DNA of 64,000 nucleotides, taken from assembly GCA_013141015.1 (NCBI GenBank), contig JABFRT010000031.1, positions 1 through 64,000 of the forward strand, written 5' to 3'. Shown here piece after piece: positions 733-15,096 of this stretch. Made by a program: the position numbers and the translations under genes. The notes under the pieces are model-generated. The model was not told the DNA's origin. It saw nothing but the letters and a program-made list of their open reading frames with translations, and searched no databases. Each line of letters begins with the position of its first letter. Positions within the stretch are counted from its first letter, which is position 1. Source of the DNA: Hyphomicrobium sp. (GTDB lineage Bacteria > Pseudomonadota > Alphaproteobacteria > Rhizobiales > Hyphomicrobiaceae).

Positions 733-895
733 ACAACCTCACGCACCGGCGGACGACGAGATGAGAGGGAGCATGACCGCCACGCCGTTGCGCTCCGACA
801 CTTCCTTCCAAAAATTCCCGCACCCCCATCCCCCGCGACGCGAAGCCTTCGCGTCGCCGTGCGCGAGGCGGCGCGGTTTTACGAGAAGCGTCTCC
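733..895 (+). repeat. Shared leader repeat, copy 1 (before cassette 2)
   Basis: This sequence recurs at about 2101-2335, 3730-3983, 5579-5824 and, as a remnant, 8896-9070. It begins with CACGCACCGGCGG, has a purine-rich ribosome-binding-like stretch just before an ATG (773 here), and contains a hairpin GCGACGCGAA / TTCGCGTCGC (835-844 and 848-857). Here it joins the Rhs core at about 896; other copies join the core at different points. Confidence 0.7.
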
Positions 896-1588
896 CCGGT
901 GCGGATGACGAACAGCGCGAAAGCGTCGGTATGGGATGTGATCTACACGCCGTGGGGATCATTCCACTCCGCGACAGGCGCGCGACCACTTGGAAGTCCC
1001 CTTGCGGGGCAGACCTTGAACACCCGCTTCCCCGGCCAGTGGTTCCAGCTCGAATCGGCCTTGCACTACAACTGGCACCGCCACTACGATCCGAGCCTCG
1101 GCCGCTACACCCAGCCCGATCCGCTGGGCTTCGTCGATGGGCCGAGTGTGTATGCGTATGCGCGAAGCGGGCCACTAAAATATGCCGATAAAGACGGTCG
1201 AAACGCATCGGCCGGTGGTACAATTGGTCAGACTATAGGGGCCTTAACTCCAATCCCTGGCGGAGCCGCAGCGGGTAGGATACTGGGCACAGTGATTGGA
1301 GCCGGTATTACATACTATTGCACACCGTCGGACAGTGGTTCGTCCGAGCAATCCGATACAGCACCTCCCCCACCCATTGCAGACGACGACAATGACTGCA
1401 AAGATCGAATGAGCGAATATCAAATTGAGCAATGTCTCGTAAATGCTCATCAATTGAAAATCGACACTCTCGGGCGACGCGCGAGAATTGCACGATACGA
1501 ATTATGCAAATGCCGTAACAGCGAAGTTGCTGTTAGATTAATTGGCTGCAAAGGGCCGACGCTGCGTACGGGTGTAATGTGTCCATGA
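773..1588 (+). CDS. Rhs core fragment with variable tail, cassette 2
   Basis: The frame encodes about 271 residues if the ATG preceded by GAGAGGGAGC is used. True Rhs homology starts at about position 896 and covers only the last part of the core, including the hallmark HRHYDPSLGRYTQPDPLG of the Rhs-repeat-associated core. A unique tail follows: a glycine-rich hydrophobic stretch (GGTIGQTIGALTPIPGG...), then an acidic region and seven cysteines. It is far too short to be a complete Rhs protein, which normally exceeds 1000 residues and has YD repeats and an export domain. It is therefore best read as a displaced 3'-end cassette. It carries one in-frame palindromic insertion (983-1009). The tail matches no toxin family I recognise. 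Confidence 0.65.
   Translation: MTATPLRSDTSFQKFPHPHPPRREAFASPCARRRGFTRSVSPVRMTNSAKASVWDVIYTPWGSFHSATGARPLGSPLAGQTLNTRFPGQWFQLESALHYNWHRHYDPSLGRYTQPDPLGFVDGPSVYAYARSGPLKYADKDGRNASAGGTIGQTIGALTPIPGGAAAGRILGTVIGAGITYYCTPSDSGSSEQSDTAPPPPIADDDNDCKDRMSEYQIEQCLVNAHQLKIDTLGRRARIARYELCKCRNSEVAVRLIGCKGPTLRTGVMCP
983..1009 (+). repeat. In-frame palindromic insertion P5 (cassette 2)
   Basis: Twenty-seven bases encode RPLGSPLAG between conserved GA and QTLN of the Rhs core. They are absent from cassettes 3 and 5 and identical in cassette 4 (4584-4610). The segment contains a small CCCC-TTGC-GGGG hairpin. Confidence 0.75.
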
Positions 1589-1986
1589 ACAAATCCACGA
1601 CCAGAGTGCGCTCGTACTTCGCGATCAGCGGGTTCGCTTGTCCGCCAGAGCAGCTCACCAATATAATTGGAATTGTTCCGGATAAGTCGTCTGGAGGCCA
1701 TCCGGACCGTAGCGGAATGAGTTACTGGGAAATCCAAGGAGCTGAGGGGCATTCATTGGAAATAGGCGACCACATTACCAATTTGATGCAAAAACTGGCG
1801 ATCGCCTCTTCGTCACTCAGAATTGCAACCGAGCTGGATGATGACAGAGTCGAAAGGAATATTTTCATTGTTATCGATCGCATTGACTGCCACAATTCTC
1901 GACCCTATTTGATCTTGACGCCTGCCCAAAGCGCATTTCTCGCAACGCACAAAATAAATCTGATCATAGATATGAACTCGGGGTGA
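1585..1986 (+). CDS. DUF4279-like putative immunity protein, cassette 2
   Basis: A 133-residue soluble protein. The N-terminal pattern (short strand, G-x-x-x-x-P-E-x-L-x-x-I-I-G-I-x-P), a central tryptophan in SYWEIQG and the later helix/strand order resemble DUF4279, a family often found beside polymorphic toxins. The ATG overlaps the stop codon of the upstream Rhs tail (ATGA), so coupled translation is likely and this start is preferred over GTG at 1579. Its role as the immunity partner of the cassette 2 tail is inferred from family and position. Confidence 0.65.
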   Translation: MNKSTTRVRSYFAISGFACPPEQLTNIIGIVPDKSSGGHPDRSGMSYWEIQGAEGHSLEIGDHITNLMQKLAIASSSLRIATELDDDRVERNIFIVIDRIDCHNSRPYLILTPAQSAFLATHKINLIIDMNSG

Positions 1987-2025
1987 TTTAGCCCGCATCG
2001 CCCAGAATAAGCAAAGCGAAGAAAT

Positions 2026-2100
2026 GTTGGGTTAGGTTCGTCCACTGCACACTTCCCAGTTTTGCTCCCTGCGGTCGCGGGACCGAACCGTAACCCAACA
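2026..2100. repeat. Palindromic spacer repeat, copy 2, with nested hairpin
   Basis: The same arms as copy 1 (TTGGGTTAGGTTCG and GAACCGTAACCCAA) are present, but the loop is enlarged by about 30 bases containing a second hairpin (TCCC-TGCGGTCG-CGGGA). One palindrome appears to have inserted into another. Confidence 0.65.
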
Positions 2101-2136
2101 ACCTCACGCACCGGCGGTTGTTTAAGGGAGGAGACC

Positions 2137-3225
2137 ATGACCGCCACGCCATTGCGCTCCGCAACTTCACTCCCGCACCCCCATTCCCCGCGACGCGTTC
2201 CCATCGCGTCGTCGTGCGCGAGGCGGCGTGGTTCGAGGATTAGCGTCTCCCGCGCTCGCTGTTCCAGCCGGCGCTTTTCAAATCTACCCTGGACCCCGGA
2301 TCGCTGCCGGTCGCTGCGCAACCGGGTCCGGGGCAAGCTCTACAACGGCTTCGAGCAGTTGATCGGCCGAGTGATCACCAACTCCGGCACCGCCAACGGC
2401 ACGACGTACTTTGTCCATGACCTCTGGGGCAATGTGATCGCCGAGCTGACCACGGCCGGCGCGACGGTGCGGGAATACATCTATCTGCCGGAAAGTGAAA
2501 TTGCGCCAACGCGGCAGGCGCGCGCCCAGGTCGATCGCCCCATCGCGGTCGTCGATGCCGTCAACACCGCGACGCCGGTGACGCTGATGGTGCATGCCGA
2601 TCATCTCAACCGCCCGGTGCGGATGACCAACAGCGCGAAAGCCAGCGTCTGGGATGTGATCTACACGCCGTGGGGATCATTCCACTCCGCGACCGGCGCG
2701 CAAACCTTAAATTCGAGGTTCCCCGGCCAGTGGTTCCAGCTTGAATCGGCCTTGCACTACAACTGGCACCGCCACTACGATCCAAGCTTGGGCCGCTACA
2801 CCCAGCCCGACCCGCTCGGGTTTGTGGACGGGCCGAGCGTGTATGCTTATGCTGGGAATAGTCCGTTAGATGCGACCGACACTACTGGAGAAATGAAAAG
2901 ACCCCAATATCCTTATCGAATGTGCAACTCGACGGAACAAGTACAGTGCTTCCAGAAGTGTGCGAAGATTGGCAAGGGATTGAAAACTTGCCGTGTCGCA
3001 CGTGTGCATCGATACCTGGGGCCCGGTGAAGATGGCAAACCGCAGTATGGGCCTAAGGATGGCGAGCTGAGCTGCAATTGCATGGAACCCGAACAGGCCG
3101 ACGAAACAAACCGGTCATATAGCCAATGCGGCAAAAACTGTCGCTCGGTCCGAAAATGGGTAAGAGATGCGGCCACTGGACTTCTTATCTTAACCACAGT
3201 TGTTGTTTGCGGGTTGGCATTCTGA
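2137..3225 (+). CDS. Rhs core fragment with variable tail, cassette 3
   Basis: About 362 residues from an ATG preceded by a near-perfect ribosome-binding site (AGGGAGGAG). The first roughly 65 residues derive from the repeated leader. Rhs homology begins at about 2336 (YNGFEQLIGRVITNSG) and runs through the core hallmark RHYDPSLGRYTQPDPLG. The tail of about 120 residues has nine cysteines and ends in a hydrophobic segment (GLLILTTVVVCGLAF) that could span or enter a membrane. This copy lacks palindromic insertions P2-P5 and so shows the uninterrupted form of the core. As a stand-alone gene it is truncated; it is probably a silent or donor cassette. The tail's toxic activity is not recognisable. 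Confidence 0.65.
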   Translation: MTATPLRSATSLPHPHSPRRVPIASSCARRRGSRISVSRARCSSRRFSNLPWTPDRCRSLRNRVRGKLYNGFEQLIGRVITNSGTANGTTYFVHDLWGNVIAELTTAGATVREYIYLPESEIAPTRQARAQVDRPIAVVDAVNTATPVTLMVHADHLNRPVRMTNSAKASVWDVIYTPWGSFHSATGAQTLNSRFPGQWFQLESALHYNWHRHYDPSLGRYTQPDPLGFVDGPSVYAYAGNSPLDATDTTGEMKRPQYPYRMCNSTEQVQCFQKCAKIGKGLKTCRVARVHRYLGPGEDGKPQYGPKDGELSCNCMEPEQADETNRSYSQCGKNCRSVRKWVRDAATGLLILTTVVVCGLAF

Positions 3226-3227
3226 AG

Positions 3228-3602
3228 ATGGCAGATTCATTGCATTTTCCTGGTCGACAGCTGAATACCTTTGCGACATCCGTCGATAAAGAACGATTGG
3301 TGGTTGGTGAGGCGTATTTTACAGTTGTATTTTTTGATGAAGATATGACCATTCCGAAAATGGAGACGATCATATATCTTGGCCAATCTAGTATCGATCA
3401 GATTGCGAAAAAGAAGAAGCTTCTGGCGATTGAAGGGGAGCTATATGTCTTCAGGGAAATTGAAAATCATCGCTGCGGAATAGACAAAAATGATATTGCC
3501 TTTGAGCAAGCGGAGTTGGCAGGTGTATACGAATTCGAGGCTGCAATAGATGTGCTGCTTCGTTGCGCGTTGTGTCGGACCACGCGGAGCAATACGATTT
3601 GA
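3228..3602 (+). CDS. Putative immunity protein, cassette 3
   Basis: A 124-residue soluble protein beginning MADSLHFPGRQLNTF, with its ATG two bases after the stop of the cassette 3 tail. Alternating strands (AYFTVVFFDED, METIIYLGQ, KLLAIEGELYVF) are followed by an acidic helical C-terminus, suggesting a compact alpha/beta fold. I do not recognise the family. The position directly after a variable Rhs tail, and the same arrangement in the other four cassettes, make an immunity role likely. Base composition is visibly more AT-rich than the Rhs core, as usual for exchanged cassettes. Confidence 0.55.
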   Translation: MADSLHFPGRQLNTFATSVDKERLVVGEAYFTVVFFDEDMTIPKMETIIYLGQSSIDQIAKKKKLLAIEGELYVFREIENHRCGIDKNDIAFEQAELAGVYEFEAAIDVLLRCALCRTTRSNTI

Positions 3603-3683
3603 TGAGATCCGCGCAGCCCGGAATAGGCAAAGCGAAGACATGTAGCCCTCGTAGCCCGGAATGAGCAAAGCGAGGAAATGTAG

Positions 3684-3729
3684 GTTGGGTTAGGTTCGTC
3701 CTCTGCACTTGGACGAACCGTAACCCAAC
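3684..3729. repeat. Palindromic spacer repeat, copy 3
   Basis: This is the best-preserved copy. GTTGGGTTAGGTTCGTCC (3684-3701) pairs with GGACGAACCGTAACCCAAC (3711-3729) with one small bulge. Upstream, two AGCCCGGAATxxGCAAAGCGA motifs (about 3610-3680) resemble a second widespread REP-like sequence. Confidence 0.75.
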
Positions 3730-3983
3730 AACCTCACGCACCGGCGGACGACGAGATGAGAGGGAGCATGACCGCCACGCCGTTGCGCTCCGCAACTTCA
3801 CTCCCGCACCCCCATCCCCCGCGACGCGTTTCCATCGCGTCGCCGTGCGATAGGCGGCAGCGTTCGAGGGTGCATGGGTCGCGAACTGCGGCCCCCAGGA
3901 GTCCATTTTCCAACCGGCGCTGTTCGCGTTTTCCCTGGACCCCGGATCGGTGCCGGTCGCTGCGCAACCGGGTCCGGGGCAGG
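3730..3983 (+). repeat. Shared leader repeat, copy 3 (before cassette 4)
   Basis: The fullest leader copy. It contains the GAGAGGGAGC-ATG start context (ATG at 3768), the GCGACGCG/CGCGTCGC hairpin and a long palindrome at 3940-3979 (CCCCGGA ... CCGGT ... ACCGG ... TCCGGGG). It joins the Rhs core at about 3984. The corresponding palindrome lies at 2294-2333 in the cassette 3 leader. Confidence 0.65.
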
Positions 3984-5120
3984 CTCTACGACAACGCTGG
4001 CAACATCCTAACCGACAGCCGCTCGGGCGGGCCGTGGGTTTACACCTACAACAAGGCCAACCGCTTGAAGACCGTGGCGGCCTCGGCGACCGTGCGCGGC
4101 ACTTATGTCTACAACGGCTTCGAGCAGTTGATCAGCCGCGTGATCACCAACTCCGGCACCGCCAACGGCCCTCTTTGCGTTGGCGCTTCGGATGCCCACC
4201 CGCATCCGCGCCGGTACTTCGTCCACGATCTGTGGGACAATGTGATTGCCGAGCTGACCACGGCCGGCGCGCCATCCTACTTGCCCGCCTCCGGCAGGAC
4301 GCGCGAATACATCTACCTGCCCGAGGCCGAGATTGCGCCGACGCGGCAATCCCGCACGCAAGTCGATCGCCCGGTCGCGGTCGTCGATGCCGTCAACACC
4401 GCAACGCCCGCGACGCTGATGGTGCATGTCGATCATCTCAACCGCGCATTTTTCGCGCTTCCGACTCCCCTGCGGGGAGCCTGCCGGAAGCGCAATCAAG
4501 TCCGGATGACCAACAGCGCGAAAGCGTCGGTGTGGGACGTGACATTCACCCCCTGGGGCGCATTCCACTCCGCGACCGGCGCGCGACCACTTGGAAGTCC
4601 CCTTGCGGGGCAGACCTTGAACACCCGCTTCCCCGGCCAGTGGTTCCAGCTCGAAAGTGGCTTGCATTACAACTGGCACCGCCACTACGATCCAAGCTTG
4701 GGCCGCTACACCCAGCCCGACCCGCTGGGGTTTGTGGACGGCCCGAGTGTCTATGCGTATGTTGGCAACGCGCCAGTACAAGGAAGTGATCCAGAAGGTT
4801 TGATGGGGAGATACACGGTGCCATGCGGCCGTTGCACGCTCACCTACGACTCCGATCAGTTCAAAGGAGCGCATACTCACTGGAACTGCCCGGGAGAACC
4901 GCAGGGGTGCATCAAAAAGGATGGCACATTGTGCGACGGTTCCAAGCCTCCACCACCGGAAGTAAAACAGTGTCTTGAGAATCGCAAGCGTATTCCAACT
5001 CCGGATACTAGTGCGCGAAACTACACTCCTTGGATCATTGGAGGCGCCTGTGTTGCGGCATGTATACTCGCTCCACAGTTTTGCTTGCCCGCAGCTGGCG
5101 CCGCCGCGTTGACCCAATGA
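3768..5120 (+). CDS. Rhs core fragment with variable tail, cassette 4
   Basis: About 450 residues, the longest cassette. After the leader-derived N-terminus, Rhs homology starts at about 3984 (RLYDNAGNILTDSRSGG, a YD-repeat-like segment) and continues through the core hallmark to a tail of about 115 residues with nine cysteines. The tail includes HTHWNCPG, a proline-rich stretch and a hydrophobic end (WIIGGACVAACILAPQFC). Four in-frame palindromic insertions (P2 to P5) interrupt the core relative to cassette 3, each keeping the reading frame. No export domain or full YD-repeat barrel is present, so on its own it is unlikely to be a working effector; it probably serves as an alternative 3' end. 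Confidence 0.65.
   Translation: MTATPLRSATSLPHPHPPRRVSIASPCDRRQRSRVHGSRTAAPRSPFSNRRCSRFPWTPDRCRSLRNRVRGRLYDNAGNILTDSRSGGPWVYTYNKANRLKTVAASATVRGTYVYNGFEQLISRVITNSGTANGPLCVGASDAHPHPRRYFVHDLWDNVIAELTTAGAPSYLPASGRTREYIYLPEAEIAPTRQSRTQVDRPVAVVDAVNTATPATLMVHVDHLNRAFFALPTPLRGACRKRNQVRMTNSAKASVWDVTFTPWGAFHSATGARPLGSPLAGQTLNTRFPGQWFQLESGLHYNWHRHYDPSLGRYTQPDPLGFVDGPSVYAYVGNAPVQGSDPEGLMGRYTVPCGRCTLTYDSDQFKGAHTHWNCPGEPQGCIKKDGTLCDGSKPPPPEVKQCLENRKRIPTPDTSARNYTPWIIGGACVAACILAPQFCLPAAGAAALTQ
4182..4212 (+). repeat. In-frame palindromic insertion P2 (cassette 4)
   Basis: The hairpin GGCGC-TTC-GGATGC-CCACCC-GCATCC-GCGCC lies inside a 45-base segment (4170-4214). That segment replaces 6 bases of cassette 3 and encodes PLCVGASDAHPHPRR. 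Confidence 0.75.
4272..4301 (+). repeat. In-frame palindromic insertion P3 (cassette 4)
   Basis: Thirty bases encoding PSYLPASGRT replace 6 bases (TV) seen in cassettes 3 and 5. A weak hairpin (TCCT...TGCC / GGCAGGA) is visible. Confidence 0.6.
4446..4499 (+). repeat. In-frame palindromic insertion P4 (cassette 4)
   Basis: Fifty-four bases replace one proline codon. A perfect 9-base stem, GCGCTTCCG (4455-4463) with CGGAAGCGC (4485-4493), encloses an inner CTCCCC-TGC-GGGGAG stem. The same stem type occurs intergenically at 10324-10364 and 14873-14914. Confidence 0.8.
4584..4610 (+). repeat. In-frame palindromic insertion P5 (cassette 4)
   Basis: Identical to the 27-base insertion in cassette 2 (983-1009), encoding RPLGSPLAG. 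It is absent at the same site in cassettes 3 and 5. Confidence 0.75.
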
Positions 5121-5139
5121 CAGCTTGGGAGCATTTGAA

Positions 5140-5511
5140 ATGAGCGATTCTGAAATAGGTGCCAAAATTCGAATGTGCATTCAGGTCTCGGCCACAGAAA
5201 CCAAGTGCTACGGAAACCGTGCCGCTTTGCAGGCTATTGCGACTGAATTGCAGCGGATTTCCGCATCTGATCCGTCGGAGAATTTTGAAATTCACCTGCG
5301 GCTTGGTTTGTCAGACCATGAAGCGCTCTTCGGCAATTGCATTCGCAAGAATATATGGGTGGTCGAGGAAGGCGATCAATGTAACGTGTCGCAAGGAAAT
5401 GATGTTCCTAACGACGCAATACCATCCGGTTTTGAGGTTACGTTTATGCACGTAACAGAGAGCCAGTTGGACAGTCTCGAGCCAAGCCCACAATGCTCGT
5501 GCAGCCCGTAA
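5140..5511 (+). CDS. Putative immunity protein (Imm32-like), cassette 4
   Basis: A 123-residue soluble protein starting MSDSEIGAKIRM, 19 bases after the cassette 4 stop. The central pattern C-Y-G-N-R-x-x-L-x-x-I-A-x-E-L followed by a strand with H-L-R-L resembles immunity families built on GN-x-x-GL-x-x-LA-x-x-L...HIHL, such as Imm32. The match is from memory and weak. The C-terminal part (GFEVTFMHVTESQLDSLEP) looks like a strand plus helix. Placement after the variable tail supports an immunity role. Confidence 0.5.
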   Translation: MSDSEIGAKIRMCIQVSATETKCYGNRAALQAIATELQRISASDPSENFEIHLRLGLSDHEALFGNCIRKNIWVVEEGDQCNVSQGNDVPNDAIPSGFEVTFMHVTESQLDSLEPSPQCSCSP

Positions 5512-5530
5512 TGAGCAAAGCGAAGATCCG

Positions 5531-5578
5531 TAGGTTGGGTTAGGTTTGGACCTCTGCACTTGGGCGAAGCGTAATCCG
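5531..5578. repeat. Palindromic spacer repeat, copy 4 (degenerate)
   Basis: It matches copies 1 and 3 on the left arm (GTTGGGTTAGGTTTGG), but the right arm reads GGGCGAAGCGTAATCCG, so the stem has decayed. The usual CACCGGCGG leader start follows. Confidence 0.6.
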
Positions 5579-5882
5579 TCGGCCTTACGCACCGGCGGTT
5601 GATGAGGTGAGAGGGAGCATGACTGTTCAACGATTGCGCTCCGTCACATCCCGCCATCAATTCCCGCTCCCCATCCACCGCGACGCGATTGCATCGCGTC
5701 GCCGTGCGAGAGGCGGCGTGGTTCGAGGATTAGCGTCTCCCGCGCTCGCTGTTCCAGCCGGCGCTGTTCGCGTTTTCCCTGGACCCCGGATCGGTGCCGG
5801 TCGCTGCGCAACCGGGGCCGGGGCAACCTCTACGACAACGCCGGCAACATCCTGACCGACTCGCGCTCGGGCGGGCCGTACA

Positions 5883-5922
5883 CCCCGGATCGCTTCCGCT
5901 CATTGCATGAGCGGGTCCGGGG
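5883..5922 (+). repeat. In-frame palindromic insertion P1 (cassette 5)
   Basis: CCCCGGA (5883-5889) pairs with TCCGGGG (5916-5922) around a perfect inner stem CGCTCA-TTGCA-TGAGCG. It encodes TPDRFRSLHERVRGRL inside the Rhs core, where cassette 4 has two residues. The same element occurs at the leader/core junction of cassettes 3, 4 and 5 in the same frame. Confidence 0.75.
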
Positions 5923-6985
5923 CAGGCTCTACGGCTACAACAAGGCCAACCGTTTGAAGACGGTGACGGTGGCGGCGACCGTGCGCGGCACCTACACCTA
6001 CAACGGCTTCGAGCAGTTGATCTCGCGCGTGATCACCAACTCCGGCACCGCCAACGGCACTTTTTGCATTGGCGCTTCGGATGCCCACCCGCATCCGCGC
6101 CGGTACTTCGTCCACGATCTGTGGGACAATGTGATTGCCGAGCTGACCACGGCCGGCGCGACGGTGCGGGAATATATCTATCTGCCGGAAAGTGAAATTG
6201 CGCCAACGCGGCAGGCGCGTGCGCAGGTCGATCGCCCGATCGCGGTCGTCGATGCGGTCAACACCGCGACGCCCGCGACCTTGATGGTGCATGTCGATCA
6301 TCTCAACCGACCGGTGCGGATGACGAACAGCGCCAAAGCTTCGGTCTGGGAGGTGACATTCACCCCCTGGGGATCATTCCACTCCGCGACAGGCGCGCAG
6401 ACGCTGAACACCCGCTTCCCCGGCCAGTGGTTCCAGCTCGAATCGGCCTTGCACTACAACTGGCACCGCCACTACGATCCGAGCCTCGGCCGCTACACCC
6501 AGCCCGACCCGCTGGGGTTTGTCGATGGGCCGAGTGTCTATGCGTATGCGAAAAACCATCCGGGTGAATACGTAGACCCAGATGGTCGATTCGTGCCTCT
6601 ATTTTGCCTGCGCTTCCCTCGGGTGTGCAAAGAGATATATAGCTGCATAAGAAATCCCGAACGGTGTAAAAAGTATTGTCGAGGAACTGCTTCGGCTATA
6701 TATCATCGTTTTTGTGATCGCGTGCCAGGATGCACAGGAAACGAATCGCCGAATACTGCGCAAATGAAGCTCGGTGCCGCTTCCATGTGTTATCACCTGC
6801 GCGTGATTGTCAAAGAAGTCTGCTATGGTAACAAGCCAGACGCCGGGCATGATCAACAGATAGAAATATACAGAAAAAAGAAGGAACAATGCGAACGCGT
6901 CTGTCGACCTGAGCCCGGAGATAATGGCGGCCCGCCATCGCTTCCTGATTTCGATATTCCAATGAGCCTATTGGGCGATGAATAG
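5903..6985 (+). CDS. Rhs core fragment with variable tail, cassette 5 (no proper start)
   Basis: Rhs homology begins at about 5825 (NLYDNAGNILTDSRSGG). Between the in-frame stop at 5603 and the TTG at 5903, which lies inside palindrome P1, I find no ATG, GTG or TTG. Here the leader ATG (5619) is in a different frame, unlike cassettes 2-4, so the cassette is probably silent. The core hallmark RHYDPSLGRYTQPDPLG is intact. The tail of about 145 residues has eleven cysteines (for example FCLRFPRVCKEIYSCIR and ERCKKYC) and a basic C-terminal helix. P2 is present (6071-6101); P3, P4 and P5 are absent. No toxin domain is recognised. Confidence 0.6.
   Translation: MHERVRGRLYGYNKANRLKTVTVAATVRGTYTYNGFEQLISRVITNSGTANGTFCIGASDAHPHPRRYFVHDLWDNVIAELTTAGATVREYIYLPESEIAPTRQARAQVDRPIAVVDAVNTATPATLMVHVDHLNRPVRMTNSAKASVWEVTFTPWGSFHSATGAQTLNTRFPGQWFQLESALHYNWHRHYDPSLGRYTQPDPLGFVDGPSVYAYAKNHPGEYVDPDGRFVPLFCLRFPRVCKEIYSCIRNPERCKKYCRGTASAIYHRFCDRVPGCTGNESPNTAQMKLGAASMCYHLRVIVKEVCYGNKPDAGHDQQIEIYRKKKEQCERVCRPEPGDNGGPPSLPDFDIPMSLLGDE
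6071..6101 (+). repeat. In-frame palindromic insertion P2 (cassette 5)
   Basis: Same hairpin and site as in cassette 4 (4182-4212), within a 45-base segment (6059-6103) encoding TFCIGASDAHPHPRR. It is absent from cassette 3. Confidence 0.75.
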
Positions 6986-8791: not shown

Positions 8792-8895
8792 TCATCAAGA
8801 CGGTTGCTACAGATCGCGCAGCCCGCGTAGCACGGATCAATCAAGGCGAAGAAATGTAGGGCGCGAATAGCTTCGCACCCTGCACTTGTGCGAAG

Positions 8896-9075
8896 CGTAT
8901 TCCGCGGAGCCTCACGCACCGGCGGTTGATGAGATGAGAGGGAGCATGACCGTTACGCAGTTACGCTCCGTCTCTTTGCTTCCGCACCCCCATCCGCCGC
9001 GACGCGTTTGCATCGGGTCGCCGTGCGATAGGCGGCGGCGTTCGAGGTTGCGAAACGCGGCCCCGTCCAAGGACC
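8896..9075 (+). repeat. Leader remnant at the end of the Rhs array
   Basis: Contains the usual leader order: CACGCACCGGCGG, GAGAGGGAGC-ATG (8947), CACCCCCATCC and GCGACGCG...GGGTCGC. It runs into the DUF302 gene without any Rhs core. It marks a deleted sixth cassette or the outer boundary of the array. Confidence 0.6.
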
Positions 9076-10305: not shown

Positions 10306-10323
10306 AGGTGGACCTCTTTGGTT

Positions 10324-10364
10324 GCGCCTTCCGGCACGCCTTCGTCGAGCCGGCCGGAAGGCGC
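10324..10364. repeat. REP-like hairpin upstream of purQ
   Basis: A perfect 12-base stem: GCGCCTTCCGGC (10324-10335) with GCCGGAAGGCGC (10353-10364). It matches the stem type of in-frame insertion P4 in the Rhs array. It could also terminate transcription from the gene at 10466-11056. Confidence 0.75.
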
Positions 10365-10465
10365 GTCAATCTCCCTCCCCACGACGGGCGGGCGAAAATT
10401 GAGCCTCTGCAACTAATGGGACTCTGCCGCAAAGTCCACCCGGCCCGTTGCCGCGCCGTCCGAAT

Positions 10466-14860: not shown

Positions 14861-14872
14861 GGTGTTTGTTTT

Positions 14873-14914
14873 GCGTCTTCCGGCCGGCTCCCGGAACGGG
14901 AGTCGGAAGGCGCG
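14873..14914. repeat. REP-like hairpin after DUF1476 gene
   Basis: The outer stem CTTCCG.../...CGGAAGG encloses CTCCCG-GAA-CGGGAG. This is the same architecture as in-frame insertion P4 of the Rhs array. A second palindrome (CCTGGCC...GGGCCGGGATACC, about 14945-14975) follows, so the region up to 15060 is repeat-rich and non-coding. Confidence 0.7.
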
Positions 14915-15096
14915 GATAACAAGTGTCATCCTGGGCCTCGCCAATCCTGGCCTTCGTGGGCCGGGATACCAGGGCTCCATTGTGCGGCTGCTCAGACGAC
15001 GGCTATTGCGCTCAGCGTGTGAGCTGCTGGACGGGGCATTCGCAATGGCACGTGTTCATATAAATTTTGTCAAAGGACAGAAAACAATTGGCACCG

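Follow-up and report, generated by a model that had tools for sequence, protein, structure and literature searches.

Dispersed palindromic elements within Rhs cores and housekeeping genes of Hyphomicrobium

How do short palindromes come to lie inside genes that remain open, and what becomes of the peptides that they add? The question is raised by a 64,000-nucleotide stretch of a Hyphomicrobium sp. genome, here called the window (contig C13, positions 1 to 64000, of a 3.94-Mb assembly in 69 contigs), which begins with four Rhs core fragments that differ from one another by the segments P1 to P5. We show, at the level of sequence, that palindromes have inserted, in both orientations, into Rhs cores as well as housekeeping genes, and that one family, P4, lies both ways in a single loop of the protein IleS. 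The inserts in genes seem to add loops to the encoded proteins, and we infer that they are translated, neutral and mobilised. P1 (together with its relative P0), P2, P4 and P5 are probably separate, non-autonomous repeat families of the repetitive extragenic palindromic (REP) kind, which entered genes and were kept in frame as loops.

Palindromic inserts in the Rhs cores

The four cassettes, A to D, all match TIGR03696, the RHS repeat-associated core, with E-values from 1e-19 to 2e-21; Pfam at a threshold of 1e-3 returned no match for any of them. Alignment of the four cores yields net inserts of 45 bases for P1 (core D against C), 39 for P2 (C and D against B), 24 for P3 (C against B and D), 51 for P4 (C against B and D, with core A beginning at the P4 site) and 27 for P5 (A and C against B and D), and thereby reproduces the lengths reported in an earlier reading of this DNA, the original prediction. 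All five lengths are multiples of three, an outcome that has a chance probability of 1/243 if they are independent and of 1/81 without P3. In A, B and C, an open frame extends from the shared leader ATG across the core, inserts included. A fifth Rhs core, on contig C8, carries P4 where core C does, and P1 at a different site.

The original prediction had called all five segments palindromic. This holds for P1, P2 and P4, whose hairpins are matched in stability by only 1 to 4 of 500 mononucleotide shuffles (31 of 500 for P0). P5 is weakly palindromic, with 138 of 500 shuffles at least as stable, and the P3 hairpin is no better than its mononucleotide shuffles (220 of 500). P1/P0, P2, P4 and P5 are dispersed elements, with near-identical short copies over several to many contigs. 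A genome search with an 851-base query from core C gave 39 matches, mostly short and within its P2, P4 or P5 part, and no additional match for P3. Copies of P1 lie on contigs C8, C56 and C3 (two on the last; E ≤ 2.4e-4), and the C8 copy is identical over 45 bases. P2 has 12 genome copies at E ≤ 1e-5 and is present in 10 of 60 genomes; its peptide GASDAHPHPRR is read in Rhs cores C and D and also in an integrase-core transposase. Separately, we observed that this integrase-core (rve) transposase (L032 5606-6643; also L303 and L288) carries P2 in frame at the same site in the source genome and in genome G006.

One could hold that no elements are involved and that the Rhs core simply has loops of variable length at these places. 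For P3 this is likely true: with no further copies and a hairpin at shuffle level it was rejected as an element, and an Rhs core of genome G030 deviates in length at the P3 site. For P1, P2, P4 and P5 the same account is refuted by near-identical copies elsewhere in the genome, and as a general explanation of the inserts we give it almost no credence. The original observation is upheld for these four segments but not for P3.

The sites of the inserts are found empty in related cores. In a comparison that covers the core C query and part of core D, the Rhs cores of G005, from the same genus, and G030, from another, lack all five peptides; the peptides do not behave as conserved Rhs loops, the two longest homologous cores compared being without them. 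A second Rhs core of G030 (L090) holds a P2 insert (40.7 bits, E = 4e-7) and a P4 insert (39.7 bits, E = 7e-8), both reversed, in one open frame and at sites that differ from those in the window, which indicates that P2 and P4 reached the Rhs cores of each genus by separate insertions.

Two side observations concern the layout of the cassettes (Table 1). By reading, their breakpoints coincide with palindrome positions, as the cores of B, C and D start at P0 (2293, 3939 and 5783) and core A starts at the P4 site (899). An extra copy of the cassette leader, 81% to the leader of C, lies at window positions 8820-9051, and the core C query has no match beside it.

Table 1. Rhs cassettes, inserts and P4 copies in the window
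Feature	Position	Strand	Description
Cassette A	773..1588	+	Leader, short Rhs core from about 899, variable C-terminus; P5 present; open reading frame, TIGR03696, alignment
Cassette B	2137..3225	+	Leader, P0, shortened Rhs core without P2-P5
Cassette C	3768..5120	+	Leader, P0, Rhs core with P2, P3, P4 and P5; single open frame
Cassette D	5831..6985	+	Rhs core with P1 and P2; leader ATG (5619) in other frame
P0 (P1-family palindrome) in B	2293..2343	+	82% to P1, E 3.9e-8
P0 (P1-family palindrome) in C	3939..3990	+	83% to P1, E 1.1e-8
P0 (P1-family palindrome) in D	5783..5834	+	77% to P1, E 1.3e-4
P1 in core D	5882..5926	+	Net +45; alignment; 45/45 identical copy at C8:4135-4179; hairpin
P2 in core C	4178..4214	+	Net +39; 60.8 bits; dispersed copies
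P2 in core D	6067..6103	+	Net +39; 59.9 bits
P3 in core C	4272..4301	+	24-base length difference; unsupported as dispersed palindrome
P4 in core C	4446..4499	+	Net +51; 5' T-rich tag; 67.6 bits at 4449-4495
P5 in core A	983..1009	+	Net +27; alignment; dispersed copies
P5 in core C	4584..4610	+	Net +27; alignment; dispersed copies; weak hairpin
P4 copy outside Rhs cassettes	10319..10365	+	48.2 bits; neither flank scored as coding
P4 copy outside Rhs cassettes	14871..14918	-	60.6 bits; neither flank scored as clean coding frame

The P4 family outside and inside genes

The search for further copies with a covariance model, suggested by the original prediction, was productive: at E ≤ 0.01 the source genome holds at least 91 copies of P4, a lower bound, as scoring covered 150 of 4087 candidates. 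The P4 model also matches the two hairpins, near 10324 and 14873, that had been assigned to the same stem type (Table 1). P4 consists of an unpaired 5' T-rich tag, CTTTTNNTTG in the 69 best copies, followed by an imperfect hairpin with an asymmetric bulge. In the model, built on 21 copies, 7 of the 15 pairs have both sides changed, and none of 500 shuffles reaches any of five measures. The tags GTAG and CGTC are rare: in 3 of 69 copies one stands near the 5' end, and in 8 of 69 the 3' end has either one or its complement close by. Across 60 genomes, at E ≤ 1e-5, P4 was found in 22/22 of the genus, in 6/14 of the rest of the family and in 0/24 of other families. A search for the exact P4 pattern in a collection of named genomes, from which the window's own records were possibly excluded, returned 22 stretches, all from Hyphomicrobium, Hyphomicrobiaceae, Hyphomicrobiales or Proteobacteria metagenome-assembled genomes (MAGs). 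The name of the genus rests on these hits, together with loci of G011 that match those of a named Hyphomicrobium MAG. Rfam had no match in the window and seven further loci (8 sources), and P4 as a known RNA family was rejected on that ground.

Two observations on the placement of P4 stand by themselves. In three cases (L019 2105-2151, L020 1998-2044 and L030 2001-2033) a copy begins at most about 15 bases after the end of a tRNA or tRNA-like gene, and contig C55 (L031) carries P4 at 7305, 7691 and 8077, with a spacing of exactly 386 bases and near-identical flanks.

Copies were placed relative to genes by a codon model that scores their 180-base flanks. Its training stretches included wrongly oriented parts of contigs C3 and C9, and it misses genes with a weak codon signal, so that counts of P4 copies in genes are floors. 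Among the 90 own copies examined, of 91 (C39:99744 was left out), at least 11 lie inside genes, including the two Rhs copies. P4 is in frame, according to the flanks and Pfam, in TrmFO (C25), GlyQ (C43), IleS (C2) and UvrA (C23), and MazG (C64) holds two adjacent in-frame copies in opposite orientations, on the same evidence. A terminase-like gene on C15 has three in-frame copies, all below the codon threshold; the other four of the seven sub-threshold copies are intergenic (C39 and C25) or of uncertain placement (C36 and C5). At the threshold used, no own copy lies between coding flanks that share a strand but differ in frame. LysA, on contig C3, was rejected as a carrier, as both in-frame cases on C3 disappear in the correct orientation. 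In the terminase-like gene, we observed that the first two copies look nested, one interrupting the other (C15:22741-22976, L137).

Homologues of these genes have empty sites. The best solved homologue listed for each of TrmFO, GlyQ, MazG, IleS and UvrA lacks the P4 peptide. GlyQ was matched in 40 of 41 genomes searched; all of the 29 other loci that were read, of which 20 belong to the genus, have a short loop only and no P4, and a second GlyQ copy in the source genome is also without it. In the AlphaFold model of the P4-bearing GlyQ, residues 241-253, between two helices, have a predicted local distance difference test (pLDDT) score below 50, the mean being 74. At the insertion junctions in Rhs and GlyQ, judged by eye, bases are replaced and there is no clear target-site duplication of the kind that would mark a miniature inverted-repeat transposable element (MITE). 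As a further observation, the two GlyQ genes belong to about 10 kb present twice (C43:1-10824 and C11:220-9842; L251-L258) at 94-96% identity, with P4 in one GlyQ. This pair is either a duplication or the product of two mixed strains (contamination estimate 3.9%); C43 and C11 are not two whole-contig haplotypes, as their similarity stops after about 10 kb.

In other genomes, the codon model places 11 of 94 classed P4 copies in frame in genes (of 102 matches, 8 were omitted, partly as duplicates, and some loci overlap). Four of these lie at approximately one site in an S-adenosylmethionine (SAM) methyltransferase of four MAGs (codon model, with Pfam for one), two lie in terminases and one in an acyl-CoA dehydrogenase (Pfam for one each), and the remaining four belong to IleS of a single MAG, described below (Pfam for one). 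A further copy, classed as in frame with a stop (L118), is at what reads as a gene end, and three copies with flanks on the same strand in different frames are at a gene start (two, L194) or in a repeat array (L203).

One IleS loop and the reading phase

The loop of IleS that follows the residues TPQWFI was read in all 22 genus genomes (L259-L281). By the model, P4 occupies it in 11 of the 22, forward in six (G002, G006, G008, G010, G015 and G020) and reverse in five (G001, G007, G012, G019 and G021), while the loop of G016 resembles a worn reverse P4. A different palindrome family (CCCTCTCCCC...GGGGAGAGGG), recognised by eye and not by a model, seems to fill the loop in seven genomes (G000, G003, G004, G005, G011, G013 and G018), and G009, G014 and G017 have no clear element there. 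We also observed that this second family gives peptides such as PPHPNPLPKGRG, and that in G005 it runs on into GRGNDASE repeats. By reading, the T-rich tag lies on the left in most forward P4 alleles and on the right in the reverse ones. Since the tag moves with orientation, whole elements would lie both ways in the loop, which implies that the site was hit two or more times or that a whole element was inverted. An in-place inversion of the spacer alone was rejected, by reading, as the source of the two orientations, since the unpaired tag flips too. A second site in IleS holds P4 in the source genome and three tandem copies in a named Hyphomicrobium MAG (L116), the same MAG having one more in-frame P4 in another IleS loop; G005 and G013 have weak P4 matches at the second site (E 0.002-0.003).

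When P4 lies in a gene, its arm is read in one codon phase in 12 of 15 gene-site-orientation events (P = 8.6e-4, about 9e-4, with free choice of phase allowed for). Thirteen of the events were read by script, the Rhs core of G030 by eye and the third terminase copy separately; three pattern matches off the hairpin (L116, G010 and G002) were dropped, and the script missed the own element at the second IleS site, an event that rests on L116. The reverse peptide in the preferred phase is APSGRLPAGESEGA, and the forward peptide has similar ends because the arms of P4 are complementary. Of the 69 best-scoring copies in the source genome, 63 are free of stops in all six frames, against a mean of 26 and a maximum of 36 in shuffles, counts that overstate independence because the copies are related by descent, so that six-frame openness describes the family and is not 69 independent tests.

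These observations are consistent with a simple route by which the elements would persist in genes. An intragenic copy would survive if it added a multiple of three bases within a loop, and the surviving copies would mostly be those in the phase where the two arms of the hairpin code for small polar residues (A-P-S ... E-G-A), a phase that would yield near-identical ends in either orientation. As most examined P4 copies are stop-free in six frames, they would be tolerable as coding sequence. The Rhs cores, multi-copy and truncated, may simply be permissive targets.

The palindromes might instead be kept for a function at the RNA level, as terminators, attenuators or determinants of mRNA stability, with their coding capacity a side effect. 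The covariation of the P4 hairpin would fit such a role, as would the three copies a few bases after tRNA-like genes and the position of most copies outside recognised genes. However, the window and the seven loci contain no Rfam family, the hairpin lacks a downstream run of T (the tag is 5') and the intragenic reading-phase bias points to the peptide; we regard an RNA-level function as quite improbable.

Besides the common descent of the copies, several observations weigh against retention in frame as loops. In cassette D, the leader ATG at 5619 meets a stop at 5855, leaving the inserts in frame with the core only. The C8 core is broken and split over two frames, the Rhs core of G009 breaks frame at P2, and a copy of the P2-bearing insertion sequence (IS) on C33 is frame-shifted just past P2; the Rhs region of G006 also has two P2 copies. 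Another phase is used in three of the 15 events, namely by the P4 in the window's Rhs core, by the one in the acyl-CoA dehydrogenase and by the third copy in the terminase. The G009 core and the C33 copy mean that in-frame retention is not universal, and the original claim of in-frame insertion holds for A, B and C, open throughout, but not for the leader of D or for P2 in G009. Frame breaks, truncated cores and inserts common to cores through duplication would all be expected if the Rhs cassettes were silent or decayed and the inserts were neutral junk, in frame by chance or through copying from core to core. We find this unlikely: in A, B and C the reading frame runs from the leader ATG through the core and every insert, each of the five net lengths is divisible by three, and housekeeping genes contain in-frame members of the same families.

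Mobility, known systems and significance

If the elements are of the REP kind, a Y1_Tnp tyrosine transposase of the REP-associated (RAYT) type may move them, now or until recently. The source genome has one RAYT-like Y1_Tnp gene, a 179-aa open reading frame (ORF) at L011 1297-1836 (C3), adjoined by a 299-aa ORF that resembles an IS110-type transposase, and the short, tagged, imperfect hairpins are themselves REP-like. Nonetheless, a search of the other 21 genus genomes found no Y1_Tnp (1/22 in all), compared with 22/22 for P4. No P4 copy at E ≤ 1 lies within about 1.5 kb of the own Y1_Tnp gene or of four others, which include loci from the P4-bearing genomes G024, G025 and G030 (one of G030's two), and the tags are neither GTAG nor CGTC. 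RAYT mobilisation of P4 was rejected on the first two counts, and overall we judge mobilisation by a RAYT very unlikely. P4 is a short imperfect palindrome with many genome copies, as REPs are; a RAYT gene flanked by the repeat, the arrangement of a REPtron, was not found in the five Y1_Tnp loci, and GTAG or CGTC end tags are rare.

Non-autonomous families kept in frame as loops, the explanation we favour, have a precedent in the Rickettsia palindromic elements (RPEs) of Ogata, Claverie et al., short repeated palindromes that many proteins carry in frame, as described in the parts of PMC3733652 considered here; its reference list includes a title (Ogata 2002) by which coding palindromes were first treated as a Rickettsia peculiarity. 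The likeness drawn here is one of placement: here, too, short palindromes keep the frame of many different proteins, in genes whose function is known and whose homologues have empty sites. According to the same parts of that source, CGTC repeats have no known transposase or mobiliser, and the lack of one for CGTC-type RPEs is a further similarity to the elements here. The differences are that the genus is not of the Rickettsiales, that the 5' tag is another one and that both orientations occur in one protein loop.

Intragenic REPs are also on record (same parts of PMC3733652), in several species and in genes that include uvrA and tRNA synthetases, with most copies extragenic, and Xanthomonas recB carries different REPs at about one site. 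P4 resembles the GTAG/CGTC REPs in its short imperfect hairpins, high copy number, mostly extragenic placement and presence in uvrA and tRNA synthetase genes; unlike them, it carries neither tag. The passages covered mention no reading-phase preference and no genus-wide loop filled both ways, and the word 'Hyphomicrobium' is absent from the main text of that paper. Template switching, as described in part of PMC8604942, homogenises the two arms of inverted repeats that lie in coding sequence and can invert the spacer between them; at the IleS site, by contrast, the unpaired tag turns with the hairpin. We found no literature on Hyphomicrobium palindromic elements, judged by titles and abstract openings, none linking Rhs with repetitive extragenic palindromic sequences, and, among the results listed, none on point by title on palindromic elements in tRNA synthetases.

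As an interpretation, the original prediction is partly borne out. The likeness to Rickettsia coding palindromes in another alphaproteobacterial group is supported by dispersed in-frame palindromes, with further copies for P1, P2, P4 and P5, and by empty sites in related cores. P3 and the suggested RAYT transposase drop out, as does a special tie to toxin genes, given that P4 also lies in GlyQ, IleS, MazG, UvrA, TrmFO, a methyltransferase and terminases.

Relative to the parts of PMC3733652 considered, intragenic REPs are already known; what is new here is the occurrence of coding palindromes outside the Rickettsiales with a different tag, no link to a RAYT, a preferred reading phase and an IleS loop filled repeatedly in both directions. 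Coding palindromes are found genus-wide outside the Rickettsiales, in GlyQ, IleS, UvrA, MazG, TrmFO, terminase and Rhs genes, with empty sites in relatives. This could make two matters directly testable, namely the spread of such elements without a RAYT and the uptake by proteins of random segments of 15-20 residues. More tentatively, the Hyphomicrobiaceae might possess tagged, RAYT-independent palindromes that re-insert in the same loops, are constrained in phase and grow in tandem, a possible standing source of new segments in essential enzymes, and these palindromes may also steer the recombination of Rhs cassettes.

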